From Mytilus galloprovincialis (Eukaryota > Mollusca > Bivalvia > Mytilida > Mytilidae), in contig NC_134844.1 in assembly GCF_965363235.1 (NCBI RefSeq), positions 74,579,497 to 74,643,496 on the forward strand: a DNA stretch of 64,000 nt, in the 5' to 3' direction. Numbering within the stretch: position 1 is the stretch's first letter; each line of letters opens with the position of its first letter. Both the position numbers and the translations under genes were made by a program. The notes below the pieces were generated by a model. That model was not told the origin of the DNA and ran no database searches. It saw nothing but the letters and a program-made list of their open reading frames with translations. Shown in pieces: positions 15,936 through 59,318 of this stretch.

Positions 15936-17560
15936 TTAGAAGTATGAAAATATAAAAATGTACGCAAACTGCTCTGAATTTGTTACTACAAGTTGATTCC
16001 TCACTCTGTGAAAGAAAATTGCTGTTGGTCTCTCAATACCATCTTCTTTGGTCAGTATCTGTTTGTACTGTTTTCTATCAGTAGATATGATCAACACCTT
16101 ATATGAACCAGCAACAATAACGTTCCAATATATATCCACGGCTATTCCCCGCGGATACTCTAAAATATTTTTAACTCCAAACTTCAAAACTAGTGCTGCA
16201 CTGTACAAATATCAACTTACTGTGTGATTATACGGATTGGTGAAGAGAATCTTGTCAGCATGTGTTGAGACGTATGACATCTTAGATGAGACAGTGTTAG
16301 GTATTGTAGTGATACTGTAGTCTGTACAAGATATCACATGTAAGTCTTTACAATTAACACAACAGATCTATGACTTACCGTCATAAGTAATTCCATAGGG
16401 ACTAAGATATAAATCGATGAACTTCTTTGCCTTTTTCTTAGTCAGATCAACAATACTGACGCCTGACTTTTTTCTTAAATATACAGTAGATACAGCTATT
16501 GTAGAGTCATCTAAGGCCGCTACATCAAACGCACTGTATGGTTCTCTAAGGGGAATTATATATACAACTTCACCATCTGCATTAATTGCTATTACTTTTT
16601 CGGTGTTAACTTCGTAATTTGAGAACATAAACTCACCTTTTTTATTAATGAAACATCCAACAGGTATTTACAAGTTGTGTTCAGTGTTCGTTTTGATACA
16701 GATTTTACATCGTATATCAATTGTTTTGCTTTGGGAACTATTATTTGGGCTTGTCGGTCTTTTTTTCTATTTAGGTTAATGTGAAAAGACGGACTTTTCC
16801 TGACTTTTATGGAAGCAAATCCATCAACAGTCAGAATATCTTTTACCTTAGCATCTATTACACTTTCAATTGTGATTTTCTCGTGATTTTGATTTTCAAT
16901 ACTAGACTGGAGATGCTTTTCGTATTCAGTGGTATTCGCTGCAATGTCTTTTCTAAATAGAAATGCTCGCAGAGCTGATGTATATTTCTGCATGTACTGA
17001 ATTTCTGACCTCATCTGGTGTATTTCCTTTTCTTGATCTTGAAGTGAAGACACAGTCGATCGAATCGCGTTGCAGCAATTAAAATCAATTTTGTGAAGTT
17101 ATTTTATGAACTCTTGTGCGAGTTTCTCGACATGCTAAATGATCTCAGTTTTTAAGTCAAAAATATGTGCTGTTATTTTTTTCTTTTCATCTTTTAGACT
17201 TTCTATATTGTACTTTCTATCTTTACGAATTTGAATGATACTACCAATGAGGTCGTCAAGGCTTTGCTCTATGTCAACGAAGGATGCAGAAGTCTTGATG
17301 TCCCTTACTACCTCTTCAAGTGAAATTATTTCCCAATATTTTCCATGATCCTTTACGCACTTGTTACATATTGGACTCTCGTGCTTAATACAATAAAGTT
17401 GATACATCTCATTGTGATAAACGCAATTCTGTTTGATGTCGGTTACAACAGACGGTAATAAGTGGTAATCTAAGATAGCAATGGTTTTGTGATTTCTTGT
17501 TGCATTTAAAACATTATGATGTTCTCTACAGTCAGAACATAATGGTTCTTCACACACATT
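15936..17560 (-). pseudogene. Decayed B-box/TRIM-like gene copy
   Basis: A degraded tandem relative of the intact gene at 19774-21495. Four blocks in the order expected for a minus-strand gene match it. 17135-17557 covers B-box residues (CEEPLCSDCREHHNVLNATR, YHNEMYQLYCIKHESPICNK) and the start of the coiled coil. 16592-17053 covers the rest of the coiled coil and linker. 16368-16628 covers part of the propeller (FDVAALDDSTIAVSTVYL, SIVDLTKKKAKKF). 15936-16208 covers its end (YPRGIAVDIYWNVIVAGSYK). The blocks lie in different frames and contain in-frame stops. The first half of B-box 1 is missing. The intact copy has no introns across this span, so splicing is an unlikely explanation. The word ACAAAAGTCTCCTTGG downstream of both copies shows that the duplication included flanking DNA. 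Confidence 0.8.
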
Positions 17561-17792
17561 ATAAAACTTGACTTCTTGATTGCTTCAATTGCGTTGTTCA
17601 TTGTTAAAATGCATTAATTCATCAAACGAGAATAATATTGAAGAAAAGAAATCCATTAATACGCACCGATTCTAGTTCCTGAATAGCTTTAATGACTAGT
17701 TCATGTTTCATACTATGATGACTTCATGCGAGAGCTTCTGATGACGACTGAAAAGAAGCTACTATTATCTTGAAACTTCGCTTTCTACTATA

Positions 17793-19773: not shown

Positions 19774-21495
19774 TTAGACATAAGACACGTCATACATGTA
19801 TGCAAACCGGTTTTCATTTGTCACTAATAGCAGATTCCTCACTTTGTCAACACAAATTGCTGTCGGCCCATCAAGACCATCTTTCTTGGTCAGTATCTGC
19901 TTGCACTGTTTTCCATCAGGAGATATGACCACTACATTACATGAATGATTTCCAACCACAAAAATGACTCCATTGTTGTCTACAGTAATTCCTTGTGGAC
20001 TTTTGATAACTCTTTCATCTTTGAACTCCCACACTAGTGCTCCACTATATAAGCAACACGTTACAGTTTCTTTATCCGGAGTTGTAAAGAAAATCTTGTC
20101 ACCATGCGTTGAGACGTATGAATACCACGATGAAGCAGTATTAGGGATTGTAGTGATACTGTAGTTTGTACAAGATATCAAATTTAAATCTTCGCCAACA
20201 ACACTGGAGATCAATGATTTACCGTCATAAGTAATTCCATAGGGATGATTATTTAAGTCAGTGAACGTAATTTCTTTTTTCTTGGTCAGATCAACAATAC
20301 TAATACCACACTTTTCAAATGAATATCCAGTGGATACAGCTACGGTAGAATCATCTATGTATGCTACATCAAACGCTGTGCATGTTTTTTTAAGCGGGAT
20401 AGAATACTGAACTTTACCTTTGAAATTAATTGCTGTTACTTTTTCATTGTTATATTCGTTATCTGTAAACAGGAATTCACATTTATTTGTAACACAGCAC
20501 CCTACAGGATACATAGAAGCTGTGTTCAGTTTTCGTTTGAATTTAAGTTTTACATCGTTGATCAATTTTATTGGTTTGTGAAGCACTATTTGTGCTTGTC
20601 GGTCTTTCCTTCTCTGTAGGTCAAATTTTTTAGACAGACTTTTCTTGACGTTTATGGAACCAAATATATCCACAGTCAGAATATCCTGTATCTTAGTGTC
20701 TATTGTACTTTCTATGTTGATTGTTTCGTTGTACTCATTTTCATTACAATACTGAAGATCCTTTTCGTATTCAGTGGTTTTATTATGAATCTTTCTCATA
20801 CTTAGGAATGTTTGCAGATTTGATGCGTATTTCTTTGTGTTTTTGATTTCCGACTTAAACTGATTTATTTCATTTGCCGTGTCTTGAAGTGTAGACACAC
20901 TAACACGAATCGGGTCGCAGCAATTAAATTCAATTTGTTCAAGTTCTTTTATGAACTCCTCTTCTAGTTTATTGAGATGCTGGATGATCTGCTTTTTCAA
21001 GTGACAAACTTCTGCAGCTATTTTCTTCTTTTGATCTGTTAGACTTTCTATATTCGACTCTCTGTCTTCACGAATTTTGTTAATGTTTGTAAATAGGTCG
21101 TCAAGGCTCTGCTCTAGGTCAACGAAGGACTGTGAAGTTTTGAAATCCTTTACTATCTCATCAAGAGGAAGTATTTGTCCACATTTCCCATGATCCTTTG
21201 CGCACTTGTTGCATATTAGACTCTCGTGCTTACTACAGTAAAGTTGATAATTCTCATTATGATAAACGCAATGCTGTTGGATGTCACTTACAACAGTTGG
21301 TAATAATTGGAAATCTGATATAGGAATTGTTTTGTGATTTCTTGTTGCCTTCAAAACATTATGATGTGCCTTACAGTCAGAACACAATGGTTCTTCACAC
21401 TCAATACACCAGTAAGCAGATTGTGTAGTTTGGTGTTGAAGATCGCACACCACGCACACTGATCTACATGTAGCCATTTTCAATGTCACTGTCAA
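19774..21495 (-). CDS. B-box / coiled-coil / beta-propeller (TRIM-like) protein
   Basis: A single 573-residue open frame. Residues ~10-60 form B-box 1 (CVVCDLQHQ, CIECEEPLCSDCKAHH) and ~75-110 form B-box 2 (HCVYHNENYQLYCSKHESL, CNKCAKDHGKC), with the Cys/His spacing of zinc ligands. Residues ~125-275 are rich in K, E, Q and L and read as a coiled coil. From ~330 on come repeated strands of the type AINFKGKVQYSIPL, FDVAYIDDSTVAVST, PYGITYDGKSLI, PQGITVDNNGVIFVVG and GPTAICVDKVRNLLLVT, typical of NHL-like propeller repeats. There is no RING domain, so E3 ligase activity cannot be assumed; RING-less B-box proteins usually act as scaffolds or antagonists. Bivalves have large families of such genes, often annotated as TRIM45-, TRIM56- or TRIM71-like. 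Start: the first Met; a Met seven codons on (MATCRS) is equally likely. No introns are seen in this span. Confidence 0.9.
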   Translation of the reverse strand: MTVTLKMATCRSVCVVCDLQHQTTQSAYWCIECEEPLCSDCKAHHNVLKATRNHKTIPISDFQLLPTVVSDIQQHCVYHNENYQLYCSKHESLICNKCAKDHGKCGQILPLDEIVKDFKTSQSFVDLEQSLDDLFTNINKIREDRESNIESLTDQKKKIAAEVCHLKKQIIQHLNKLEEEFIKELEQIEFNCCDPIRVSVSTLQDTANEINQFKSEIKNTKKYASNLQTFLSMRKIHNKTTEYEKDLQYCNENEYNETINIESTIDTKIQDILTVDIFGSINVKKSLSKKFDLQRRKDRQAQIVLHKPIKLINDVKLKFKRKLNTASMYPVGCCVTNKCEFLFTDNEYNNEKVTAINFKGKVQYSIPLKKTCTAFDVAYIDDSTVAVSTGYSFEKCGISIVDLTKKKEITFTDLNNHPYGITYDGKSLISSVVGEDLNLISCTNYSITTIPNTASSWYSYVSTHGDKIFFTTPDKETVTCCLYSGALVWEFKDERVIKSPQGITVDNNGVIFVVGNHSCNVVVISPDGKQCKQILTKKDGLDGPTAICVDKVRNLLLVTNENRFAYMYDVSYV

Positions 21496-22799
21496 AATAA
21501 AGTTCCAAATTAAAAAATGTGTGTTGTTACGACATGTACACAGAATTGAATAGAACTAAACGTACAAAATTAGAAAGTGGGTACAAGTATTTTTCGTATA
21601 ATTTATTAAAGTACCAGAAAAGGAAAATTTGTGTTTGAGCTTTTGATTTTGCTATTTGATTAGGAACTTTCCGATTTGAATTTTCCGCGGCGTTCAGTAT
21701 TTTTGTGATATAACTTTTAACATACTGTAATGGTCACATTTTACAAAGGATTATAACCTGTATCTATGTTACAGAACACTGTTTAATCTTCGAAGTTAAC
21801 ATTTCATGACCACATAAATGTGCATCATTCAGAACTCGTCTTGACTATAGACATATTTGACATATACGACATGTACAATTACAAATGAAAAACAATACAT
21901 ATTGATGTACTTTATGATAATTCCTGTATTTCCCTAATCGAAATAAAATGTTTAAACTAATATGAAAGTAGAAGTACATTAATAACTACATGAACTAATC
22001 CATGACTCTGATAATGAACAATGTTTTATTTAAAGCCGAGAAGTAAAGATACTCATCAACACTATGAAAACTCACACGACCATTACATATTATTAGTTCT
22101 GAAGTTTCGATTATTTATATGTGACGTTTTCTTAACATTAAAACCAAGATACTCTATAGAGCCTGAGTCGTTCAACATGACTTATCTGCAAAACAAATTC
22201 CGCGATGTCTATTTTGAACTTTAACTGTTAAATAACATAAAATCACGTAAATGTTATTTCAGTACTGCATGCAACGAATGTATCTATCAATTAAGTTGAA
22301 TTCGAATTTAGACTCGACCATTCTAGTTGAAAAAGGCTAGGTAAGTGGCTTTTTCACGTTTCGAGAAGTTTTCACGAATTTAAAGTCACATTAAGTCTAA
22401 TGATAAGTTCATATTGATATTAATGATAAGACAAATAAGCTCTAACAATCCTAATGCCAACCGGGGTCTCAGATCTTCACATCCGTCTGTGTTCATATGT
22501 CAATACAATATTTTAAATGAATTTTTATATTTTCTTAACACTGCTCATTCTTTTTTTATCATTCTTTATAGGTCTTTCCCAGATCAAGTAAAATCACAAA
22601 TATATCAAGAATTACATGAATTATAATATACAGACCTTCAATGTAAACTAATAGTGTATTTATGATAATAGTGAGATGTTACATATAATCACATGACGTT
22701 AAACGTGTGACTGGTCATATGATTGATAAGATAACGTAATATTAGTATTGACCAAGGTATTGTTGTACGTTTACGGTCGTCCATATATCGATGTCAACA

Positions 22800-30365: not shown

Positions 30366-31002
30366 CTATGGAATAGCACAAAGTGTTATAGTCGTATTAA
30401 ACATGTATTAACCAATCTGTCAATTCTACCCTTTGTATTCCTCTAGCATGTTTAATATTCGTAACACAACCATACATGAATGAATGGGATTTTTTTTACG
30501 TAAAAGCAATTGATGTATCTTGTTTTAGATATGGGATATATTTTTGTTATACATTTTATATTTTTAAGATCAATTAGGAAATGTTTTATAATCCGAAACA
30601 CCGATTGTTTTGGCCATCTTACTATCTAACAGTTTGCAAAAGTTAAACTGCAAATATTACGCCAATAGTAAAAATATCAACATGACAAGATATCAGAAAA
30701 TTTTCCGAAAGAGATGTCTGTGTTCTTTTTATGTAGCTGAATTAAAACTTTCGTTTCCTCGTTTATCGAGGAAGAAATTTTGCAGATGTCTTTGCAATTT
30801 GCTTTTTATAGTCAAATGCACTCTTGGTATTATTTCAAAAAGCGTATACATCAAAACGTTTTCATTGACGTGGTCAGTTTATTTGGAATGTCCCTTTGAT
30901 ATCTTTCGCCACTCTGTTCCTAACAGTATCGTGTTTTAGCTAAAAATAGTCAATATTGTGTTTAGTCTCGCTACACTCAAAAAATGTTTTTTAATTTGAT
31001 AG

Positions 31003-32952
31003 AATACCAACTATGTATTGGCTTCCAAAACTACACAAAACCCCTTACAAATATAGATTTATTTCGTCTTCAAGCCATTGTTCAACTACTAAATTGTCTA
31101 TTCTTCTTACCAGCACACTTGGTACAATTAAAAACCTTATAATAAATTGTTCAAATAAGGCCTTCGAAAATAGTGAAATAAATTACTTTTGGAGTGTCAA
31201 GAACTCGTTGGAAGTACTTGATAAATTGCATGCTCATATTGGTGATTTTGAATCTGTTCAAAGTTTTGATTTTTCTACCCTGTATACCACATTGCCTCAC
31301 ATTCTCATTAAGAAAAAATTCACACACCTAATTAAATGGGCATTCAAAAAATCAGAATGTGAATATATATGTTCAAACTCTTTTGGGTCATTTTTTAGTA
31401 GCAATAAACAAAAAAACTATGTTACATGTAATTGGACATGCTTTGATACTATATATGCCCTTGAATTTTTACTAGATAACATTTTTGTTCGCTTTGGGGA
31501 TTCCGTATATCGGCAGATTATCGGAATTCCAATGGGGACTAACTGTGCACCACTTATTGCGGACCTCTTTTTGTATTGTTATGAGTTACAATTTATGACA
31601 AAAATAAGCAAAGACCCATCAGAACAACATCTGATAAACAAATTTAATAATACTTTTAGATATTTGGATGATATTTTGGCTCTCAATAATGACGACTTCA
31701 GTATGTATATTAATGAAATTTATCCTGCTGAACTTACTTTAAATAAAGCTAATACTAATAATGACCACTGCCCTTTCCTCGATCTTGATATCTATATCAC
31801 TAACGGAAAGCTGAATACTAAAAATTATGATAAAAGGGATGATTTTTCATTTCCTATCGTTAATTATCCGTTTTTAGATGGTGACGTTCCCTTGTCACCA
31901 TCTTACGGTGTTTATATATCTCAACTTGTTCGATTCGCTCGTGTTTGTAACAATGTTTTAGATTTTAACGAGAGAAATTTATGTATTACTGAAAAATTAT
32001 AACACCAGGGTTTTCGATATCACAAACTAGTCAAAACTTTTACTAAATTTTATCATCGGTATAAAGACATCATTCGTAAATATAGCTCAACATGCAGACT
32101 TTTTATACGTTCAGGTATTTCACATCCATTTTTTTATGGAAATATTCTTTATAAAGCACAAAGGTGTCAGTATTCAACTCAGAAACTTACAAAACCTTTA
32201 AATAGACTGATTAAGAAGGGATATAATTACGATACTGTTGTCAAGTTATTAAAGATTGCATATTTTGGCGTTAATATTGAGTCACTGATAAGGTCTTTGC
32301 GTCGGAACTAAAGACATTTATTCTAAAAACAGTTGTTGGCATGACACGGGTTATGTTCTTCTCATATATGTTATGATGGTATGATACTAAACCCCTAACG
32401 GGAAGGATTGTGCCTGATGTTCATATGATGAAACCATAATCTTTCAGTCAGTTTAATTGAAGTCTGGAGCTGGCATTTCAGTTAACTGCTAGTAGTCTTT
32501 TGTTATTTATGTATTATTGTCATTTTGTTTATTTTCTTTGGTTACATCTTCTGACATCAGACTCGGACTTCTCTTGAACTGAATTTTAATGTGCGTATTG
32601 TTATGCGTTTATTTTTCTACATTGGTTAGAGGTATAGGGGGAGGGTTGAGATCTCACAAACATGTTTAACCCCGCCGCATTTTTGCGCCTGTCCCAAGTC
32701 AGGAGCCTCTGGCCTTTGTTAGTCTTGTATTATTTTTATATTAGTTTCTTGTGTACAATTTGGAAATTAGTATGGCGTTAATTATCACTGAACTAGTATA
32801 TATTTGTGTAGGGGCCAGCTGAAGGACGCCTCCGGGTGCGGGAATTTCTCGCTACATTGAAGACCTGTTGGTGACCTTCTGCTGTTGTTTTTTATTTGGT
32901 CGGGTTGTTGTCTCTTTGACACATTCCCCATTTCCATTCTCAATTTTATCTT
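31003..32952 (+). mobile_element. Penelope-like retroelement, copy 2, 5'-truncated
   Basis: A close relative of the copy at 7.6-10.4 kb; the two align with only scattered differences from ACCAACTATGTA (31003) to the CTCAATTTTAT end near 32950. It lacks everything upstream of the MYWLPKLHK motif, so it is 5'-truncated. The long open frame at 31013-32002 is given separately. After it, the C-terminal coding part (ending SLIRSLRRN near 32310) and ~640 bases of 3' untranslated sequence follow. The window holds four further 3'-end fragments of this family, showing repeated integration with 5' loss. Inactive. Confidence 0.88.
31013..32002 (+). CDS. Penelope-like reverse transcriptase, partial
   Basis: A 329-residue open frame holding most of the RT core in order: MYWLPKLHKTPYKYRF (residues 1-16), QSFDFSTLYTTLP (~84-96), YRQIIGIPMGTNCAPLIADL (~166-185), FRYLDDILALNNDDFSMY (~216-233; YxDD catalytic aspartates) and FLDLDIYITNGKLNTKNYDK (~254-273). 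The RT would copy element RNA onto a nicked target. A complete protein would begin several hundred residues earlier and continue past the stop, so this is a remnant. No GIY-YIG nuclease is visible. This is the longest undamaged RT stretch of the family here, which suggests a fairly recent insertion. Confidence 0.85.
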   Translation: MYWLPKLHKTPYKYRFISSSSHCSTTKLSILLTSTLGTIKNLIINCSNKAFENSEINYFWSVKNSLEVLDKLHAHIGDFESVQSFDFSTLYTTLPHILIKKKFTHLIKWAFKKSECEYICSNSFGSFFSSNKQKNYVTCNWTCFDTIYALEFLLDNIFVRFGDSVYRQIIGIPMGTNCAPLIADLFLYCYELQFMTKISKDPSEQHLINKFNNTFRYLDDILALNNDDFSMYINEIYPAELTLNKANTNNDHCPFLDLDIYITNGKLNTKNYDKRDDFSFPIVNYPFLDGDVPLSPSYGVYISQLVRFARVCNNVLDFNERNLCITEKL

Positions 32953-40190: not shown

Positions 40191-42180
40191 AAAATAACGC
40201 ATTTGTCTCTTCATATGACGTAATTGATCATGCACATCATCCAATAAATCTCAATCGAGTTGTGTTCCAACAACACAGATATACAAAAATGCACTCATCA
40301 AGTTTCAAAATGTAAACATGCAAACAAAAATACAAGAGAGAAAATGTATTTCCTTTTTTAGTTAGAGATCTTTGATTTCAAGTAAACCTATAAATATCAA
40401 CAGTTCTTAAGGTGTTATTTGAATATTTGTTGAATTGAAATATAATATTGCAAATATATTCTCAAATGCAGACAACTTTAGCATTTGATAATTCATTGAT
40501 AACATTCTGGCGTATCACAAACAAACAACTTGTTACGTCTCTTTTCATTGGCCGAAAGATTTAAATACAACAACAATGTAGTCAGTGTGCACGTGAATTG
40601 ACAGAGGTGACCAACAATGGAATTTACTATGTTACTACGAACGTAAACACAATAATTTGTATAGTTTACAAACCATTGGTCAAAAGAATTAAATAAATGT
40701 TTTGTTAACTTCAAATAGTGGGGTCGAAATATTATACTGATATTTTGTTTTAAGTAATATTCTAAGTTCTTTATGGATGCAGCAACTCAATTATCTTGTA
40801 CCAATTATCTTGTACCCGTGATGATGAGAAATATAAGGATAACATAAAATACATGTGCCGCTTTTATACGGATGAATATATGAACCACTTTTAATTTCTT
40901 TCATACTGACGATAGGTTATAATCCTAACAATGTCGTAGTCACTTATAATACATGTAAGTATCTCATAATACTGATCCGTTACAATAATTAATGAGGGGG
41001 TGCACTGACATTCCTCTTTTATTATTTTCATGCTATAAAACATACACACAGTAGCTATAAGCGTACCATAAACGGAGAAAATTGTCCCCCAAAGATAGAA
41101 ACAAAATAACTTTAAACGTATCATTTGTGCACCTGAATGAATTTAGTGAAGGCATGTTGTTGTAATAAATTGAAATGTTACATCGGCGAAAATTATTTCT
41201 TTTGCATGTGTGGAACTAATTACATAAAAATGAACGATCCATTCAAATAGTATCCCACTCCCAGGGTAGTTCCCCAGATGAAAAGGACAAGTGCGTGAAC
41301 TGTTTACATTCCTTCTCTCACCTAATCTTCCTATGCCGGTATAAAATATTTGACAAGCAGTTGCATCCAAACTGCACACATTAGTTCCACATCACGATAT
41401 GACGAAGAGACTTAAATCGGCGTACTTTTTTGGTAAAACGCATTTGTCTGTCTTGGCAGCCGACCGAGTCGTCCATATTTGTTTACCATAACTTTTGTTT
41501 CCGGATTTTCAAAGTTGGACAATTCATAGAAAAAATGAGCATTTACTCTATAGTTAATGGAAATATTCTTTAATTAAGCCTTTCTGATATTCTTATCATC
41601 ATTTTAAAATCAATAACTTTATACTTTCGCTTACTAGGCAGAAAATACCGAGGTGTTGAAAAATTTGACACCTCGGTAATCTCCGGAAAATTTTCCTTAA
41701 ACCTTTATTATGGGTCGGATACCTTAATTTGTATTGAATACACATAAATTTTATAAGTATCCATTGAAAACATGAATTTAAAAGAAGCGATTAGGAATTT
41801 TAGATTGCACTATATATGTGCGCGGACATATATTTTTTATACCTCGGATATCATTCCAAAACTAATTATTTTCTTATTCTTGCCCTCAAACGCAAATAAA
41901 GTATTTATGAACAAAAACTCAAACACTTATTAATGTTAACTTTTACCGCGACTGACCAGTCCGTGCTATCATACAAAGAACTTTAAACTCTTAACTTTGT
42001 TAAGGTGACTCATTGTTATGCTAAAATAATTTAAATATTATTGTAAACATAAACACATGTTCCCAACATAACAACAAAGCCATGTGCTATCGATAGTTAA
42101 TAAATACATTTATATATGCATATATCCTTGTATGAATATTCAAATTAGGCGGAAAATTAGGCGATGGCAATACACCCGAG
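40191..42180. other. AT-rich spacer
   Basis: No gene is supported. Minus-strand frames at 40493-40714, 40891-41124 and 41143-41379 are short; the second starts with a hydrophobic segment (LKLFCFYLWGTIFSVYGTLI) but has no recognisable family. A small hairpin at 41648-41682 has arms TACCGAGGTGT and ACACCTCGGTA. Confidence 0.5.
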
Positions 42181-42199: not shown

Positions 42200-42400
42200 G
42201 TAATAACAATGATAGTCTATTTGTGGGGTCAATACAGGATATATTGACCCAAACAGTTTATGGACCTCGGACTTCGTCTTCATTCAATATACTTCTTTTT
42301 GGTAAATACAGGATATATTGACCAAAATAAGTAGATCGACCGCGGACTTCGTCCTCAGTCAATATATCTTTGTATCGACCTCAAACAAAGGCTATCATTG
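42200..42400. repeat. Hairpin array with TATTGACC words
   Basis: Two consecutive foldbacks: AATACAGGATATATTGACCC and AATACAGGATATATTGACCA are each followed by GACTTCGTCTTCATTCAATA or GACTTCGTCCTCAGTCAATA. Related stretches occur at 45235-45335 and 45780-45920. The AGGATATATTGAC and GTCAATATATCTT words are inverted with respect to each other. Non-coding. Confidence 0.75.
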
Positions 42401-42919
42401 TATAAAATTTAGAAAAAATAGTAACTGATCGACGCACTGCGGGATAAAAACAGATACATGTTCATTTATATTTAGAAATCCATTAAATGACTTGAATTAC
42501 TCTGATTTTATCTATTTTATGTACATTTGTATCTTATTATTTGTTTCTTAATTTTGTACACTTTTTAACTGCAGTTGTAATACATTTTTGTTTAATTGTG
42601 ATGTGTTTTATATTAGCATAAGTAGCATTGATTTTGAAAGTACTTTGGTTTTTATATTTTATCATTCCTAATTATGTATGACCAATTTATTGATTGTGAA
42701 AGTAGGTAGGTCACCGGAATTTTTGTTTTGATTGTTGTTTAATTATTTTTAAATATAGATTTTGTCAGAAGTTGAAAAGGTAAAACATAAATGTAGTCTT
42801 CTCTATAAATAAACAGATGATCGGTCGAACTTGGTTAAATACCATTTTTCTGAATATGGTATTATTCATACACACTTAGGTGTTTTCTATTTATAAGAAA
42901 ATAAAGGTTACAAAGAATC

Positions 42920-42977
42920 ATGGCGAAAAACATAAACTGTTGTTTTGCATTCATGTGGATTATTTTATTTGGACAAG
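42920..42977 (+). pseudogene. Duplicate signal-peptide exon with lost donor
   Basis: Codes for MAKNINCCFAFMWIILFGQ, identical in protein to the exon at 46451-46508. The DNA differs from that exon at only two bases. The donor there is CAAG|GTAAGT; here it reads CAAGATAATT, so the obligatory GT is AT. The context does not match the AT-AC intron consensus (ATATCC). Unless another donor is used, this exon cannot be spliced; reading on gives a stop after about 17 more residues (..DNLLFGTYLDRKTKTNF). It was probably copied by the ~3.5-kb tandem duplication and then lost function, although a single-allele change or assembly error is possible. Confidence 0.75.
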
Positions 42978-45234
42978 ATAATTTACTATTTGGAACATAC
43001 TTAGATCGAAAGACAAAGACAAATTTTTAGGTTTTTTTCTGTCTTTCTAACACAAATTATATAATCAAAAGTTCTCAAACTACCACAATTTGTAAAAAAA
43101 ACACAAAAACGACATCCGTTTTAGCTTTCAACATCCACGAATCACTACGAGGTTCCTAATCGTGACATATCAAAATGATATACTATAAATTTTATGCGAT
43201 TATAACTGTTATTTACTTCCATGAAGGGTCGACCATTCAATACAAATGGAACTTCCCTAATCTTATTAGCATTGAATCTTAGCTCATTTTCTTATGCTTG
43301 GTCGCTGCTTGGCAGCTTACGAGAGTTTGGTTTGTTAAAGAAAACTCAGCTGCAGAAGACTGCGTAACAGGAGCATATTATGCACAATATAAGTAACAAT
43401 ATAGTTCATAAGACAAACAGTATACATTTTTAATAATACATCTTCAGAAATTAATCTGTGTGTATTACAGCTTTAAATTACACAAGCATCTTCTCTACCT
43501 TTAGTATAAAAATTGACAGCTTAGACAGCACATTTCTATTACAATATTTAAGCATGCCAAGTACTTTTTTTTATTTGGATATTTTTTAAAATATCGAGGT
43601 ATGCACGTCCGCCTTGAATCATCAATTTCACAATAAATACATTTTCATATATAGTGGTATACATACCCAAAACTAGCGTTACAAAGAGGACAAATTATCT
43701 CATTTCGTGGTACATTTCTCTATCTTGCTGTTTCGATGAGAAACTTTAATACCCTTAATTTACATGTATTTACTCCATGACCCCGCCTTAATTTAAACAG
43801 ATATGGTTCTAAGCAAACCTCTTCTTTAAAGTGTAAATACCCGCCCCCTTTTGAAGAGTTGTTTATATCAGACAAACATCAAAGTACTGTAGTACTGAAC
43901 ACCGGATGACCGCAAGATCTAGTGGGTGGTCACAATTAACATGTCTAAACCTGAAGGGGAGGTTAGTGTATTTTTTTGTTTATTCTGAGAAAAGTTCGTG
44001 CGTGGATGATAGATAAATGACAGGGAATTCAATCTCATCTTGTTAACTATTATATTACAGTGATACAAATCAGTATATTTTGGTTTGTTATCAGATGAGG
44101 GTAGTAATGCCCTTCACCATCAGGTTCAAACGTTCATATTTTTTACATCGTTAGCGTCATATTGGTTGAAATGTTACCGTGATTCATAAAAATATCCTCA
44201 TTGTGATTCGTCAGCGGCTTCAAATTATTATCGTCAACATTTTATCGTCATGCACCAATAATGACCGTTAACGTCATTCGGCAAGAATAATCACAAATAG
44301 GCGACAGCAAAACATCGGAATGCCCTCACTGTCATCCGATAAAAGAAAGAGCGAGTGCGGAATTAAATTTTAATTAGACTGTCCGTCCACACAAAAAAAC
44401 ATTTTAAAATTCAGTTTCTTTATTCTGACACTGAAATTTTAGTTATTGACCAAACAAGTCGATTTATAAGATTTAATCTGCACTGGTCGGATGACCCTAT
44501 TCAAACCAACAGACGTGGAAGTTCGGATTAAAGGGTCATCCCGATTTGATTTGCCAATAACTGCTTTAACACATGACGTCATCAATTTACGTCAATATTT
44601 TGGAAATATGCGGACGATATTCCGCAATCCACGGCTCCTAGGAAACTTTCCTGTAAGGCAAAGAAAGGGGAAATACGTTTTTATGTAGTTAAAGATTGAT
44701 AAGTATTAACATTAAATCATTACTATTTCGTTATATTTAGGCTTTTTATTACATGATTTGGAGAATTGGAATTCGATGTTTAAAAGTGGTGTTAAAACGC
44801 CAACATTCAATCAATCATTTCTTGGACATAAATTAGGCCGATAGTTTTTTTGTGTGAAAAAGTTTATAAAGAATAGAGAAAAATGCATTAAAAATGTAGA
44901 ACATGGAATTGGAAACTGAACTGGAGGACCCTCATTCAAACTATTTCGTACATTATGTGTTTAGGCTTTTGAAAAAGTACAGATAATGCCCTAGAATGTT
45001 AGATAGCATATTCAATTTGTCCATTATTGAAGAAATTATATTGAGCTTTCTGATATTATAAAGCACACTGTTTCTATTTTGCATCAGTCAACGTTGTGGA
45101 ATATGGAAGTAAATGAAATAACAATTAATATGTTGTTTTTGTCTAGGATACAATAGATAGTATCTATGAAATTCTAACAATATCAAATGACGATTTTGAT
45201 ACAAATATGTTCGGAAATTCATAATGTGACAATT

Positions 45235-45920
45235 ATAGTTTATTTATGAGTTCAATACAGAATATATTGCCCAAAGAAGTATATCAACCTCGGACTTCGT
45301 CCTCAGTCAATGTACTTCTTTTTGGACAATTTGTCCTTACATTATTAATTCGTATATTTTAATAAATTTTATTCGTTTAGGAATAGTCATATGTTTAACT
45401 ATATTTTGAAAGGTAGAGAGAAACGGAGGATAGGAAAAAGCATATTGCACGGTTAATTTTAGAATATCTTAAATCCGATATACTTTGTGACGTCATTTAA
45501 TGAATTTCTGGATATTGTTAAACGAATTGCCTTTTGATTTTTGATTTTCCTTTTTGAATTTTCCTCGGAGTTCAGTATTTTTGTGTTTTTACTTTTTGAT
45601 CGATTATTTGACGAAAAAAAATTTCAAATACATAAGATGTCAAACAAACAAACAAAAATGAAATAACAACTAACATTTTTTTATTGTCAAGGAGACAACA
45701 TGATATCTATAAAACTCCTACAAAATCAAATGACGATTTTGATACAAATATGGTCGGAAATTATTAATATAACAAATATAGCCTTTGTATGAGTCAATAC
45801 AGGATATATCTATCCAAAGAAGTATATCGATCTCGCACTTCGTCCTCAGTCAACATACTTCTTTCTGGTTAATATATCTTTGTATCGACCTCATTCGAAG
45901 GCTGAATTTGTATAGTATCG
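45235..45920. repeat. Hairpin array copies at the head of the second duplication unit
   Basis: Two further members of the array: 45235-45335 (AATACAGAATATATTGCCCA, GACTTCGTCCTCAGTCAATG) and 45780-45900 (AATACAGGATATATCTATCC, CACTTCGTCCTCAGTCAACA). Both contain CAAATGACGATTTTGATACA just upstream (45185 and 45728), so this part is itself duplicated locally. Confidence 0.7.
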
Positions 45921-46450
45921 ACCTTAAACACAAGCTATAATTGTATGATATTTTAGAAACATATCAACTGATTGACGCACTGGGATAACACATATATGTA
46001 CATGCATTGAATGACTTGTTTACTTTCAATTTATCTATTTTTTGTACATGCATATCTAATTACTTGTTTCTTATTTCTTTACACTTTTTACCTGCAGTTG
46101 TAACACATTTTTGTTTGATTGTTGTGTGTTTTATGTTTAATATAATGGCATAAGTGGAATTGATTTTGAAAGTATTTTGGTTTTTCTATTTCATCATTTC
46201 TAATTATGGTTGACCAATTTATTGATTGTCAAAATAATTATGTCACCTGAATTTTCGTTTTAATTGTTACTTAATATATAAATATAGATAGATGTTGGCA
46301 TAAATTGAAAACGTAAACAGCAATGCTGTCTGCTCTTTAAACTAGCGAATGATCGATCAAACTTTGTTAAATACCATTTTCTGAATATGACATGATTCAT
46401 ACAAACTTATGTGTATTTTATTTGTAAGAAAATATAGGTTACAAAGAATC

Positions 46451-46508
46451 ATGGCGAAAAATATAAACTGTTGTTTTGCATTTATGTGGATTATTTTATT
46501 TGGACAAG
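46451..46508 (+). CDS. Ig-domain protein, exon 1 (signal peptide)
   Basis: A 58-base coding exon: MAKNINCCFAFMWIILFGQ plus the first base of a Gly codon. It has a short N-region, a hydrophobic core (CCFAFMWIILF) and a GQG end, as in a signal peptide. The donor is perfect (CAAG|GTAAGT). The phase (1) and the last base fit the acceptor at 57572, giving GQGYSDLQ. This call is based on motif and phase, since the next exon is 11 kb away. An earlier non-coding exon may exist. The start is chosen at the only Met with an AATC-ATGG context. Confidence 0.65.
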
Positions 46509-47089
46509 GTAAGTTACTATTTGGAACACACTCAGATTGAAAAACAAAGACACATTAGATTTCTTTTTCTGTTTTCTAACACAAAAGATATAATATAAAG
46601 TTCTCAAATATAACAAAAACATAAATGCGATATCAGTATTAGATTTCAACATACAAAACGAAATAGTCCAGAATACACAATAGTGTCGCGATAAATTGCT
46701 AAATAAATTCATTTAATGTAAAATACCGTCATGTATCAAATAGTATTTTTTTTTGACACCGTTAAGGTCAAACTGGTTACAATTTTACCGAGAATCATCA
46801 AAACCAGTCGATTTGTTTAATCGTCTAAATGAAAATGTATATTTTATCGTCATGAACCAAAAATAACTATGGACGTCATCGGCAAAAAATGTCACCATTA
46901 TTCGCCATGATGGTACCCCCGTCACTACCTATAATATATATTATATTAATATATTACAGTTGCTTGTACAATGTTGTATATACAATTTTCATCCATTTGT
47001 ATAGCATTCTATTCTACTATTTTAATTATAGTGAAGTGCATGGTGGACACTCTTCTATAATAATTATTTTTTTCTGATAGATTTGATTT

Positions 47090-47490: not shown

Positions 47491-47960
47491 TTACTGTTGC
47501 AGAGATAACGGTCTTTGAGAAAGAGCGTAGACCAAACACTATGCATAGGAGATTGCAAGTTATTGAGATATTCCTCCGCATGCATTAACACACTTTTTTT
47601 CTGTACGTGTTCAGAGATATATATTTCTAACAACAAAACATTTTCATATTATTGATGTATGTTCTTTAAAAATATCCATTGAACAAATGAATTTATAACA
47701 AGCGATGATGAATGTTATTTTGCTCTCCATAATGTATGGGTATTTACCATGTACAATCCCACCACGAAAATTAAGTGAATGAAGTTACAATTTAATTAAA
47801 TTGTCCGTTCTCTAAACTAAACATTTAAGAAAATCAGTTTCTTAATTCTGACACTTTAATTGGAGTTATTGACCAAGCAAGTCGCTTTCTATGAATTAAT
47901 CTGCACTGATCAGGTGTTTTAATTTGACCTGAACGACGTAGGAGTTCGGTTTACATGCCT

Positions 47961-49842: not shown

Positions 49843-52800
49843 GTCGAGATTACCGCGGGATTACGACGTTCCTAAGTTTGTAGATCTTTGTACATTACCA
49901 TTGGCGACGTTGGCGACTTCAGTGACGTCGCCGTGGCTCTTTGAGTTGTTATTAAAAGTTATGGCTGAACAGACGTATTTGTTTATATTAGCGAAAATAT
50001 CCTACTTTTAACCTCCACATTTATGGTACCGTGACCAAAGGATTTAAGCAAGCTCAAATCGATAAGATCCGGGAACAGAAGTGCTGTTACAAAACTTTTT
50101 CGGAAGATAGATGCAGCGAAGCAAGACACAGATTTCGATCCAGAAGAATTGACAGCAACATTTGAAAACCTTCTTCAGAAGCAAAAAATACTGAACAATT
50201 TGAACGAGCAGATACTCAACCTAGCGGAAGCAGAAGATATTGAAAGTGAAATTATAGATTCAGATGAGTATTGCATAACGTTAGAAACCAAAATCAGACA
50301 CATTAGAAATTTTGTTAGATATACTCATACCACACCAAAGACACGTCAGAGTGAAACTTCATCCCAGATATTAAATGTTGACTCTCAACAGTTCGTCTCA
50401 GCAAACCTCACAGAAAACTCATGCACGCAGTCGTCACAAAATCCGTTCTCTCAAGCTAGTAACCCAGTGAGTACTAATATAAATTCGTATACATCCGCAA
50501 GCAGTCAGAATCACTACTTACCAAAACTCTCACTTCCAATATTCACAGGGAATATATTAGAGTGGCAAAATTTCTGGGATTCGTATGAATGCGCCATACA
50601 TTTAAACCCTTCATTGACCGATGTCCATAAATTTAATTACCTCAAAGCGCAGTTACAAAATGAAGCTTTACGCACCATAGCTGGTTTTGCGCTCACCAAT
50701 GCAAACTATGCGGACGCCATTATTCTATTAAAGGAAAGATTCGGACAAACACACAAAATCACGCAAGCATACATACAAGCATTATTAGACATTACGTCAC
50801 CACGAAATCATCTTATTAGTTTGAGACAATTCTATGATCAAATGGAATCTTTGGGCCAGTCACAAGACTCGTATGGAACATTACTTGTACCAATTTTTTT
50901 GAAAAAATTACCGAGAGAAATTAAAAAAAAACTTGCCCGTGAACATGGAACAGAACACTGGTCATTACGAGACCTCCGGAAAAGTATTTGCAATGAAATT
51001 AACATAATTGATGCGGGACAATTTACCAAGTACATCATCTTTCTTTACCGGAACTAAATCAACAAAACCCCGCCAAAATCAAGCTCTAAATACAAGAAAT
51101 ATACGCCAGAATTTAGACACTAAACCTTGTGTATTCTGCCGCGATGTACACGCACCAGCGCATTGCGCGAACATATCGGATCCAGCAGCACACATGAACA
51201 TTGTAAAACGGGAGAAATTGTGTTTCAACTGCCTTGGAACACATCGTATACATGAATGTAAGTCAAAACACTTATGCCGAAATTGCAACAAAAGACATCA
51301 CACAAGTATGTGTACTGTACGCCAATTTAACAACAAGAACTACGATAATGACAGAAGTAGACAAAGCGTGCAAAATACAAATTACAGCCAACAGCATATG
51401 AATTTTCATGGTAACAATGGACAAGCTATTCAGACATCTGTACATTTGGTAAATGACACGAATCAGAAGGAGGAGGACACGTCAATTTTATATTCATCGT
51501 CAGTCGAGGTACGTACAAATGTTCTTTTAAAAACTGCAGTAGCACCTGTATGGTCAGACCACTCATGTAGAGACACCCATATACTTTTTGACGAGGGAGC
51601 ACAGAGATCATTTGTGACTGAAGTTTTAGCAAGAAAACTTAATTTACAGTCAGAGGGATCTGAAAATCTACAGTTATCATCATTTGGAGATAGAAACAAA
51701 AACGTAAGACATTTAGATAAATCGACAGTGTCCGTAGAAACAGATGCAGGACAGAAAATACCGATAAACGTTCTAATTGTACCAATGATTGCCGTACCTT
51801 TACAGAACAATATTCGCCACATCAACAGAGGACTGAATTATATGATCATACGGGGGAATGGTCCAACCGCCGTGAGGTCAAAGTTAGGTTTTTTACTTTC
51901 CGGTCCAGTAAGCGACAAGAGGGATAACTCATTGATGGGTACTAGCATTTTTAATATTCTTATTTCTCATAAAACGGAAGAGCATGATATAGAAACATTT
52001 TGGAGATTGGAATCTATTGGTATTAACTCAAAGGAAACAGACGAAGACGATACGGATTTTTTGGAAACATATCAAGACACTTCGATTGAACTCAGAGGTA
52101 ATAAATACTTTGCAAAGTTGCCATGGAAACAGGAACATGACGAACTACCATCAAACTATACAGTCACAAGAAGAAGAACAAAGAACGTTATTAAGAAACT
52201 TAGTCAAGATCCTGAACTACTAAAGAAGTATGGAGATATAATCGCCGAACAGGAACGCAGAGGATTTGTTGAGACAGTAGATGAAAAAGAACAAAAAGGC
52301 GGGAAAATTCATCACATCCCACACCACCCTATACACAAGGAATCTAGCACAACGAATACTATACGAATAGTATACGACTGCAGTTGTCGTCAACCACCAA
52401 GTCATCCAAGTCTAAATGATTGTCTTATGGACACACCACCAAAATTAAATGATTTGACAAAACTCCTAGTACAGTTTAGAGCCAACCAGTTTGCTACATG
52501 TACTGATATTGAGAAAGCTTTCTTACATGTTGGATTTAGCGAAGAAGATAGAGATGTTACCCGATTTTTATGGCTTAGTGACCCTACAAATCCAGGAAGT
52601 CAGCTGAAAACTTATAGGTTCAAAGCAGTGTTATTTAGAGCGACGTCTTCGCCCTTTATACTCAACGCCACAATACAGAAACATTTGAAACAATTCGGAA
52701 ACAGTGAAACAGCTAAAATTCTAGAAAGAGATATTTACGTTGATAACATATTGTCTAGTATGAACAAAGAGAAAGATTTACTTACGTATTTCAAAGAAGC

Positions 52801-55400
52801 AAGAAGCTTGATGGCTTGAGCTGGATTCAACTTAAGATCATGGAGTTCAAACAGTGCTAAATTACTAGAATTAGCTAAAGAAGAAAACGTCCTAGATACG
52901 GATAAGTATACCAAAATACTTGGAATGTTGTGGAACAGTCGTAGCGACGAGATTTTGTACCCTAAGCGTGATATTCCTACACCAGAACTACTTCAACATG
53001 TTACTAAACGAGAAGTTTTGAAATATTCTTCAAAGATTTATGATCCACTAGGCTTACTTAGTCCGGTTACAATTAGAGCGAAAATCCTGATACAAGAGTT
53101 ATGGAAACGTGGATTAGATTGGGACGAACTAATACCAGATAATTTAAAGACTACGTGGATAGATTTTACCAAAGATTTGGAAAAGGCAATACAATTCACT
53201 ATTCCTCGATATTATTTTAGCAAGCCATCAACATCAACAGAATTAGTACTTCATGTATTTACAGACGCAAGTCCAAAGGCGTACGGAGCAGTGCTCAGCT
53301 TATTTGAGTAACGAAAACGAAACAACTTTAGTAATGGCGAAAACCAGAGTAGCACCAGTTAAATGCTTAACCCTCCCATAACTTGAACTTATGGCAGCAA
53401 TCATCGGCGCACGACTAGCTGCACATCTTCATTCAACACTTAATTATCCAAAAATTGTATTTTGGTCAGATAGCAGAATCGTTCTTCATTGGCTAACATC
53501 TACGAAGACTTTGAAACGTTTTATAGCTAATCGAGTGAAGAAAATAACAGAATTGAAGCATCCATACAAATGGCGGTATTGCCCTACTGATAACAGCCCG
53601 GCAGATCTTCTTACAAGAGGACTTACAATTGAACAATTTGACCAGAGTATACTTTGGCGGAAAGGACCACATTGGTTAACAGATAGTACAAAATGGCCAG
53701 AACTAAATAGTGCAACAAACACCGTTTTGACGTCACTGGTAGATGACAGAGAAAATGAAGAGGAATTGGACAACTTGAATATGACGCACCAAAATAGTCT
53801 AAGCAGTATAAAAAACATATTGGATATTTCGAACTATGGATCTTACATGAAGTTATTACGTATTACCGCGTATGTCATCCGTTTTATACGCAACTGTAGA
53901 CGGGATAGGATTTCCAGAAAAGGCGGACCACTGGAGGTCAATGAATTCAAACAGCAGTAAATACTTGGATTCTAGATTGTCAAGAGTCTACGTATACAGA
54001 TGAAATATCATACCTGAGAGGAGCACAACACAGAAACACAAATAAAGTACCCAGAGTCCGACAATTGGGACTTTTCTTAGACGAAACCGGTCTTATTAGA
54101 TGTAACGGGAGAATACACAACGCACCAATACCAGAATCAGCGAAATTTCCGTACCTTATACCGGCAAATCATCCGTTAACTAGACTAATTGTATTGGACG
54201 CACACGAAAAATTACTGCATAGTAGAATGAATGCTACAGTCACCTATAGTAGACAAACGTTTTGGATACCAACTATTCGACAGTATGCAAAGAAATTACT
54301 CCACAAATGCGTTATTTGCCGCAAAGTGAATGGACAATCGTACGTTGCACCAGACCCACCACCTTTACCGAAAATCAGATTACAGGAAGCACCCCCCTTT
54401 ACAGTCACAGGAGTGGACTTTACAGGAGCATTACTTGTAAGAGACGAAAATAGAATTTTAACAAAAGCGTATATATGCCTGTTTACCTGTGCTTCTACCA
54501 GAGCCGTTCATCTAGAGGTGGTACTGAACCTAACCGAACATTCGTTTGTTCAAGCTTTTAGGCGTTTCGTAAGCCGCAAATCAATACCTAAGACACTTAT
54601 ATCAGATAATGCAACTACTTTCATCGCAGGAGCAGAGGAACTAAAAAGATTATGTGAATCGGCAACACTAAAAGAAACGTTGTCTACACGAGGAATAGAA
54701 TGGAAATTCATACCAAAACGCGCACCGTGGTATGGTGGATTCTGGGAGAGACTTATTGCGCTTACAAAGACAAGCTTGAAAAAGACACTTGGACGAACTC
54801 AAGTTAGTATGGAAACTCTACAGACTGTCGTGACAGAAATAGAAAGAATTTTAAATGACAGGCCAATTACATATTTTTCATCAGATATCAGAGATAGCGA
54901 GACGTTAACCCCAGCTCATCTTTTGTATGGTAGAAGAATATCAACGCTGCCATATCCGCAAATAGACATAGAGGAGTTCAACGATCCAACCTATATAGAA
55001 CTCAACAAATGTGCACAAAGACAAACTTTATTAATACAACACTTCTGGACCAGATGGAAGTCCGAATACTTAACTTCATTGCGTGAATTTCACAAAACTT
55101 TAGGAAAAAACAAACAATCTATTCAAATTGGAGACATAGTTCAAATACATAATGAATCGCCTAGAGTCAATTGGAAACTAGGTATAGTTAATGATATGAA
55201 ATGTCAGTCTGCACATGTTTTGATTAATTAGATAAACTTTAAACCATTTAGACTTGAGTTCATAATTTTATTTGGAATATACAATTGATTTTTTTCAATT
55301 TATATTTATATAAAATGATTGGGAATTCATGTATACTTTTTTTTCTTATAGATCACATACTCATATTTATTTCTTATAAGGTGGAATGAGGGTGGGTGCC
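49843..55400 (+). mobile_element. BEL/Pao LTR retrotransposon, broken
   Basis: A fossil LTR element of the BEL/Pao superfamily in plus orientation. Its parts follow in the standard order: a leader with a primer-binding-like TGGTACCGTGACC near 50021; a gag region with a DUF1759-type domain; a zinc-knuckle stretch; an aspartic-protease region; a BEL-type reverse transcriptase; RNase H; a zinc-binding and core integrase; and a DUF5641-type end finishing near 55231. A purine-rich tract follows near 55378-55398. I could not match a pair of LTRs, so the outer limits are approximate and the element may have lost or rearranged an end. The frame is interrupted in a few places (of the order of three to five), but the parts are long and conserved, so it looks fairly young. 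It sits inside the first intron of the Ig-domain gene. Confidence 0.88.
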
Positions 55401-56190: not shown

Positions 56191-56357
56191 CACAGACAGT
56201 ATCCGCAGGGGACAGTTTTACATCTTAACGAACATATTCTGCGCTAGTAGGTGATCAGCTAGAGCTAGCCGTCGACCTTCTTTCCAGGTTCCGTCAAACG
56301 AAAGATCACTGTCTGTGATCGGACGCCGAATTTCTCCAACATACCCACCCAAAACTT
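56191..56357 (-). repeat. Direct repeat copy 1, with conserved minus-strand frame
   Basis: Nearly identical to 56633-56799. Shared words: GACAGTATCCGCAGGG, TTGCGCTAGTAGGTGATCAG (TCTGCGCTAG here), TAGAGCTAGCCGTCGACCTT and GATCACTGTCTGTGATCGGA. On the minus strand both copies encode KFWVGMLEKFGVRSQTVIFR followed by LTEPGKKVDG (copy 1) or LTKPGKKVDG (copy 2) and a stop. The internal palindrome GATCACTGTCTGTGATC is notable. It may be a duplicated terminal exon or a repeat of unknown kind. Confidence 0.8.
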
Positions 56358-56632: not shown

Positions 56633-56799
56633 CACAGACAGTATCCGCAGGGAACAGTTTTACATCTTAACGAACATCTTTTGCGCTAGTAGGTGATCAG
56701 CTAGAGCTAGCCGTCGACCTTCTTTCCAGGTTTCGTCAAACGAAAGATCACTGTCTGTGATCGGACGCCGAATTTCTCCAACATACCCACCCAAAACTT
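56633..56799 (-). repeat. Direct repeat copy 2
   Basis: Second copy of the segment at 56191-56357, 442 bases downstream in the same orientation, with very few differences. Sequence flanking the copies differs, which puts the duplication edges near CACAGACAGTATCCGCAGGG and ACCCACCCAAAACTT. Confidence 0.8.
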
Positions 56800-57571: not shown

Positions 57572-57934
57572 GATACTCCGATTTGCAATTATTTTTTACA
57601 AAAAACATCATATATGGTCAAGATTATCTGTACGTCCAGTTCCGATCCGTCCAAACATTAACGGATGTTACAGTCAACAAATTGATTGTTCAAAAAAACA
57701 ATTCAGCAACTTTTGCTGACATCTTTGAAACAAATTTTAACAGCATTATGTGGAAAGATAGTAAAATGCAACAACGATTCTGTGTAGAAACATGGAGTGG
57801 GGTATGTGCCAATGTTACGGATATGCATATATCCAAAGACAACGTTAACTGTGAAGATACTGGCACATATAGAGGAATTTTAGAACTCTCAGATGGATCA
57901 AATATAACAGAACTGGCGCAGTTGGAGGTAAAAG
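57572..57934 (+). CDS. Ig-domain protein, exon 2 (first Ig-like domain)
   Basis: A 363-base exon after TTTTTTTCTAG and before AAAG|GTACGT, phase 1 at both ends. It codes for GYSDLQLFFTKN..., then SIMWKDSKMQQRFCVETWSG, VNCEDTGTYRGILELSDG and ITELAQLEVKG. The DTGTY motif and the following beta strands fit the F strand of an immunoglobulin V-type fold, although the usual Cys after Tyr is replaced; Cys residues lie elsewhere (FCVE, GVCAN, VNCED). Sequons NNSA (weak), NVT and NIT suggest glycosylation. The flanking phase-1 introns are typical of shuffled Ig domains. Confidence 0.7.
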
Positions 57935-58460: not shown

Positions 58461-58814
58461 TTGTGCCTGATAGAATAGAACCAATAGAATTGGTTAGCGG
58501 TCAGAATGATTCTTTGCCATTTCGTGTGCATTCTAAACTCGTCCTCCTGTGTACTGGCAGTGTAGGAGATCCACCAACGGACATCCACTGGTGTATCAAA
58601 CGTTCAACGGAGGGATTTTCAAAACTGTATGATATCCAAGAAGATATCAGCAATGGAATACCGTATCTGGTTGGTTGCCAGTATATCCAGACATCAAACA
58701 TCACATATGTAGTTTCAAACAAGGACAGCCACACTCTTCTTAGATGCTATGCAGGAGATTCTCACCAATGTAATAACAATCTAATACCGTATGAGGAGTT
58801 CTTAGTTAAAAAAG
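58461..58814 (+). CDS. Ig-domain protein, exon 3 (second Ig-like domain)
   Basis: A 354-base exon (118 codons) after TTTTGTTTAG and before AAAG|GTATGA, phase 1 at both ends. It codes for VVPDRIEPIELVSGQND, then HSKLVLLCTGSVGDPPTDIH, WCIKRSTEGFSKLYD, TSNITYVVSNKDSHTLLRCY and AGDSHQCNNNLIPYEEFLV. The C-(11-13)-W and later L-R-C-Y pattern is that of a C2-type Ig domain (B-strand Cys, C-strand Trp, F-strand Cys). Extra Cys in WCI, VGCQ and HQC could form a second disulfide. Sequons NDS and NIT are present. The protein is a secreted or surface-anchored Ig-superfamily member; the ligand is unknown. Confidence 0.75.
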
Positions 58815-59318
58815 GTATGATTTTACTGTTTTTTAAAAACAGTTTGAAAGATACGAAGCACTACAAAAAACAATAATTAAAAAACTGATAGACATCACTC
58901 CAACACAATTTGGGATGAACTCATGTGATCTAGACCAGTCGACAATTTATGTTCCTAACATGACACCCTTTCAACCCAGTATACACCCGCTGATAAGTCT
59001 CCTTTAGGGATGTCACAATCGAAGGAAAAGAAGTCGAAATTACAGTTAAGACTTTTGAAACTTATTAGTGGTCACAGATATTTCATAACGGTCAATATAT
59101 TAGTTGGCTCCGTAATCTGTCTGAATTGGGGACCGTTAATTTTACTAATAGGACGCCTTGAAATAAGCACGAATAAACATACATTTACTGTTGTATCTGT
59201 AATATATATGATGTATACAAATTACGGCATTCTTTTGTCTTTTCTTTAAAGTAAAATGATTTTATATGTTTTTATCTGTTTTACACAATTGAATAACGTT
59301 TTGTTTGATCTGTTTTAG

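Follow-up and report, generated by a model that had tools for sequence, protein, structure and literature searches.

Why would a mussel gene hold two copies of an exon encoding the same signal peptide, when one copy has lost the splice site that would join it to the rest of the gene? The question is raised by a stretch of 64,000 nucleotides from Mytilus galloprovincialis (NCBI RefSeq assembly GCF_965363235.1, contig NC_134844.1, positions 74,579,497 to 74,643,496), referred to here as the window, which is part of contig C7 (98 Mb) in a genome of 1.38 Gb and 331 contigs. The genome has 17 matches to the myticin family of mussel peptides, all above the family's cut-off, and 14 control genomes gave none, which points to a mussel. 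A first-pass annotation of the window had claimed that a 19-residue signal peptide is encoded twice with two synonymous differences, and reading and translating both exons confirmed this. The upstream exon 1 (U; 42920-42977, plus strand) and the downstream exon 1 (D; 46451-46508, plus strand) each span 58 nucleotides, that is, 19 codons and the first base of codon 20, and encode the same signal peptide, MAKNINCCFAFMWIILFGQ. The two positions at which they differ are silent, AAC/AAT for Asn and TTC/TTT for Phe.

The two exons part ways at their 5' splice sites. Following the coding end, U reads ATAATT (42978-42983, plus strand) and D reads GTAAGT (46509-46514, plus strand), in agreement with the annotated absence of a GT donor from the upstream copy. 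That annotation had described the change as AT in place of GT, which holds for position +1; a three-way alignment with a paralogous copy on another contig (C5) places a second change, missed earlier, at +5. These two positions are the disabling change in U relative to its intact homologues, D and C5. On a donor matrix of textbook values, U scores -3.39, against 11.86 for both D and C5, and within the pair only D has a usable donor at its coding end. We assign the change to U because both intact copies have GTAAGT, which is thus the ancestral state: U has lost its donor.

The recognised exons of the gene are D as exon 1 (46451-46508), followed by exon 2 (57572-57934) and exon 3 (58461-58814), and all junctions are in phase 1. 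The annotated acceptor at 57572 is sound: TTTTTTTTCTAG stands before it, the phases match, and C5 has kept the same junction. Exon 2 begins in phase 1, and both U and D are compatible with it. Exons 2 and 3 (plus strand, phase 1-1) have counterparts on C5 at 15052643-15053005 and 15053488-15053841, respectively. The gene bodies at C5 and in the window are constrained (dN/dS 0.39 for exon 2 and 0.18 for exon 3), and both thus look like working genes.

Exons 2 and 3 look Ig-like, based on weak profile matches, their pattern of cysteines and tryptophans, which we take to be that of Ig-like domains, and one distant relative at a profile cut-off. The profile matches of the gene product fell under the cut-off (Izumo-Ig, E 0.02-0.042; C2-set_2, E 0.082), and one scanned protein included a putative exon frame near 58981, first read as an exon, that is not clearly conserved on C5. 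The distant relative, from C6 and one of three relatives scanned, reached C2-set_2 at its cut-off with 21.0 bits. A PDB search gave only JAM-A (E 0.11), and structure predictions were too poor to use (pLDDT 42.0 for exon 2 and 35.8 for exon 3). Distant relatives of exon 3 occur on C2, C6, and C11 (L022, L023, L024, L026) at about 30% identity (E 1e-7 to 8e-5) and have a WCY/WCI pattern in common, which suggests a wider mussel family of Ig-like exons. A literature search that was not aimed at the gene by name found no paper on it.

The likeness of U and D extends well beyond the exon, with 77% identity between 42203-43137 and 45769-46655 over 948 columns. A genome-wide DNA search with 42900-43100 as the query found three places: U, D, and the single copy on C5. 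A 24-base pattern from the exon core matched 13 times with up to three mismatches, three of them perfectly (U, D, and C5), compared with eight matches for a reversed control pattern. Together, the three-place search and the pattern counts rule out a chance resemblance or a simple repeat. No haplotig duplicate of the entire locus was seen in the same search, and U itself is present in one copy in this assembly. The C5 locus has a single first exon starting from 15050966, with a GTAAGT donor, followed by a 1.6-kb intron and its own exons 2 and 3; its exon 1 carries three further substitutions and a 9-base insertion.

The U unit (42203-44300, plus strand) comprises a copy of the upstream region and promoter, exon 1, and part of intron 1. 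It aligns with D, and its alignment with C5 begins about 1 kb before the exon and covers most of intron 1 (82.5% identity to C5 over 1006 columns in 42203-43260 and 86.0% over 436 columns in 43860-44300), and its intron end aligns three ways. The corresponding D block (44542-46740, plus strand) contains the upstream region, exon 1, and the start of intron 1. A further common stretch lies at the right ends of the two units, 44363-44488 against 47785-47911, at 81% identity. Part of it (44434-44488) belongs to a dispersed repeat, and outside this repeat it matches just the two unit ends, among the best 40 of 359 candidates. The dispersed repeat spans the junction between the units (44434-44747); its two parts, 44434-44541 and 44542-44747, each match many genomic places and are neighbours on C3, C6, and C12 among the matches listed. 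To the left of U are two other dispersed repeats, 41301-41730 and 41932-42113, and copies of the latter are 96-98% identical, so it is probably young.

A search at E up to 10 with the exon 1-3 product found no body exons belonging to U. The 29 matches, from all 33 candidates scored, consisted of 22 distant matches and seven close copies, namely U, D, and exons 2 and 3 in the window and three exons on C5. Matches within the window were restricted to U, D, exon 2, and exon 3 at that threshold. We also considered U as the start of another gene and rejected this, as the search found no further family exon in the interval from U to D at this threshold. The locus has two homologous units of upstream region plus exon 1, in tandem, ahead of one gene body. 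By these comparisons, U and D are a partial tandem duplication of one gene that took in its upstream region, first exon, and part of intron 1.

Intron 1 of the gene also holds a Pao-type retroelement (50035-55231), with DUF1759, DUF1758, Pao peptidase A17, DUF5641, and integrase zinc-binding domains above the cut-off, reverse transcriptase and integrase core under it, and one in-frame stop at 52817-52819. No direct repeats of at least 80 bases were found flanking this element, and the 1.6-kb intron of the C5 paralogue is too short to hold it. A direct repeat of 167 bases, 98% identical and 442 bases apart, lies in the same intron at 56191-56357 and 56633-56799. Elsewhere in the window, the minus strand encodes a single-frame TRIM-like protein of 593 amino acids (19774-21555) with a B-box above the cut-off; beside it, similar frames in pieces (15936-17584, minus strand) look like a decayed paralogue. 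Open frames at 8336-9608 and 30995-32311 are very similar to each other; a Pfam scan of two of the frames, 8336-8938 and 30995-31999, gave no match at E 0.001.

The first-pass annotation had proposed that U might be joined to the gene by a distant donor. Read past the lost donor, U opens a frame of 36 amino acids that meets an in-frame stop at 43028-43030 (plus strand). There is no GT or GC in 42978-43030, between the lost donor and the stop, and because of this no canonical donor (GT or GC) further downstream can link the U signal peptide to the Ig exons in the right frame. The proposal thus fails for a secreted Ig protein. Among GT sites within the U exon, judged by eye, two create TGA at the join with exon 2 and one shifts the frame. 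After the stop are two donor-like GT sites, at 43599 (score 8.88) and 43962 (score 7.88), which are expected because such sites, scoring at least 6, occur at 1.7 per kb in the window. Upstream, U has a TATA-like box, TATAAAT (42804-42810, plus strand), 116 bases before the ATG. The box stands at -116 in U and -115 in C5 and is absent there from D, where the nearest are at -176/-174; this is weak evidence, as TATAWAW occurs 113 times on the plus strand of the window. Based on the kept box, the U promoter could be alive.

What, then, has kept the coding part of U so clean beside a broken donor? In the three-way alignment, U-specific changes occupy 72 of 637 flank columns (11.3%) and 1 of 58 exon columns (Fisher P 0.022), and the 58-column windows with the fewest U changes all overlap the U exon or its 5' edge. 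The flank used for rates leaves out 42203-42381, where tandem repeats and gaps disturb the alignment; the U-specific rate is higher in this part and in the wider distal flank (0.150 in 42203-42743), and using it would heighten the apparent constraint on the exon. When the U-specific changes are apportioned by a clock between the stem and the branch leading to U, that branch receives 8.1%. Under lifelong neutrality, zero nonsynonymous U-D differences in 48.3 sites has a P of 0.017 at the clock-split rate or 0.003 at the undivided rate, and at most one change in 58 has a P of 0.045 or 0.008. The coding part and the donor differ as well (0/48 against 2/6 changed; Fisher P 0.010), and the donor alone has not changed faster than the flank (2/6 against 72/637; P 0.14). 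These counts are very small, and the use of 58 or 73 columns, like that of six donor positions, was settled once the data had been seen.

The results thus lend modest support to amino-acid constraint on U during part of its history. If constraint is modelled as giving way to neutral decay, the likelihood peaks when 45% of the branch to U is neutral, within a range of 8% to 100%. A model in which U was dead from birth lowers 2lnL by 1.77 at the clock-split rate, where it is not rejected, and by 4.13 at the higher rate, where it just is. The annotated conservation of the coding part is therefore real (P 0.003-0.017), but it is modest, and past constraint followed by decay suffices for it. A very recent loss of the donor, one of the explanations offered at first, is not needed, given a fitted decay time from about 8% to all of U's branch. 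Because a history of constraint and then decay fits both exon and donor, the conservation appears to call for no present function of U, yet it leaves room for one.

We consider it likely, with a probability of roughly three in four, that U is a redundant alternative first exon that has lost its splice site and is now decaying. About 2 kb of a gene with two Ig exons, including the upstream region, signal-peptide exon, and part of intron 1, was duplicated in tandem, leaving two equivalent first exons before one gene body. The protein sequence of U would have been kept while splicing was still possible. Its 5' splice site would then have been lost at +1 and +5, at little cost with D intact, leaving U as a spare. 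The sequence itself shows the acceptor and phase that U and D have in common; we infer that U was at one time spliced to 57572, that it is out of use today, and that the events came in this order.

The contrast between coding part and donor (P 0.010) counts against decay, since it is also expected if the coding part is still under selection. U might be used in another way that keeps it clean, whether as a promoter with a distant donor, through translation of its 36-codon frame, or as a regulatory stretch. The U exon being the least U-changed stretch of the alignment, the kept TATA-like box, and the donor-like sites at 43599 and 43962 would all fit such a use. However, with any donor past 43030 the signal peptide would be followed by a stop and no secreted Ig protein would result, the two sites are no more than the window's density predicts, and the constraint can be explained by past function; we regard present use as unlikely. 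It is barely credible that splicing uses the AT site unchanged, through an AT-AG or U12-type non-canonical intron, or following A-to-I editing. Editing might cause the A at +1 to be read as G, but no long inverted partner of 42880-43080 that could supply the RNA duplex needed for editing occurs in the window (best match E 0.12, 24 bases). The U12-type donor, ATATCCTT, fits ATAATTTA at 4/8 positions, the acceptor at 57572 ends in AG, and +5 is gone as well; neither a U12-type nor an edited donor is supported. Slightly less probable than present use is that the donor state belongs to this haplotype, with other mussels having a working U donor, or that the assembly is wrong at 42978. An assembly error would have to account for changes at two separate positions, which a single base-calling error would not give. 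Allelic differences at a spare exon are plausible, given the very high gene presence-absence variation between individual mussels and the large hemizygous regions described in the pertinent sections of PMC7653742.

Two further explanations involve exchange between copies. The annotation had also suggested gene conversion, by which D would have cleaned the U exon after the loss of the donor, and just two differences in 58 bases within a region of 77% identity would agree with this. However, 2 of 8.7 silent sites differ between U and D, as much as in the near flanks (17-19%), and against C5 one of the two differences is U-specific and the other D-specific. The near intron flank has 15 U-specific and 6 C5-specific changes in 140 columns, and there is no long identical tract. 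We rejected recent conversion on the silent sites and the separate branches, and consider it very improbable. The other exchange would be between D and C5. The D 5' block is 88.5% identical to C5 over 2120 columns, compared with 82.5-86.0% for U, and past 46740, in what would be an older part of intron 1 (46790-47045, plus strand), identity falls to 77.5% (249 columns). Stretches of the gene body are 82.6% (455 columns), 80.7% (1147 columns), and 77.3% (1593 columns) identical to C5, with non-coding parts at 77-83%. U-specific changes outnumber D-specific ones in the 5' part (72:40), and in the intron, counting the columns that all three copies have, the balance is reversed (13:23; Fisher P 0.0037). 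Such a pattern might reflect turnover of the first exon, in which U is the old first exon and, after the U-D duplication, the C5 locus supplied the D 5' block, by replacement or by copying, so that U became dispensable and lost its donor. We regard this as a tentative and rather doubtful possibility. Among three sequences with no outgroup, the pattern can also arise from unequal rates. If true, a promoter and signal-peptide exon would have moved between paralogues on different chromosomes.

Read as a decaying redundant first exon, U would show what a duplicated first exon looks like at an intermediate stage: the protein is identical, the promoter is redundant, the donor is gone, and the coding sequence is undegraded. 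As mussel gene content varies strongly between individuals, according to those sections of PMC7653742, the state of the U donor may vary too. Typing it across many mussels could date the loss and show whether spare first exons go neutrally. The locus leaves the general rules of splicing and gene evolution intact.

The architecture of a duplicated first exon is already known. The closest parallel is PEP1 of Arabis alpina, where, in the part of PMC3527215 that describes the locus, a tandem duplication of about 2 kb takes in exon 1 along with parts of the promoter and of intron 1. A distance of 6.3 kb separates the copies of exon 1, which predict an identical protein in one accession, and the result is described as two overlapping genes with one gene body, in which both first exons are spliced to exon 2 and expression differs. 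The mussel locus resembles it in having a tandem segment of about 2 kb and two first exons ahead of one body. It differs in that the upstream mussel copy has no usable donor: working donors on both first exons are not found here (U, ATAATT; D, GTAAGT). PEP1 is also a plant MADS-box gene rather than an animal Ig-like gene. Human PGM1, as outlined in the relevant portion of PMC7101342, likewise has two paralogous first exons that arose by exon duplication, 1-1 and 1-2, each with its own promoter, before exons 2-11. Unlike the mussel pair, that duplication is old, the protein segments are 51% identical, and both exons are used. The shortened Dscam genes of chelicerates, in the account excerpted from PMC4835542, have tandem 5' cassettes with alternating promoters before constant exons, and so share with the mussel gene tandem 5' units in a member, or apparent member, of the Ig superfamily. 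Those cassettes consist of Ig exons and diversify the protein, whereas the mussel units carry a signal-peptide exon and encode the same protein in two copies. Compared with Arabis PEP1 and human PGM1, then, what sets the mussel locus apart is the loss of the donor from one of its two first exons.
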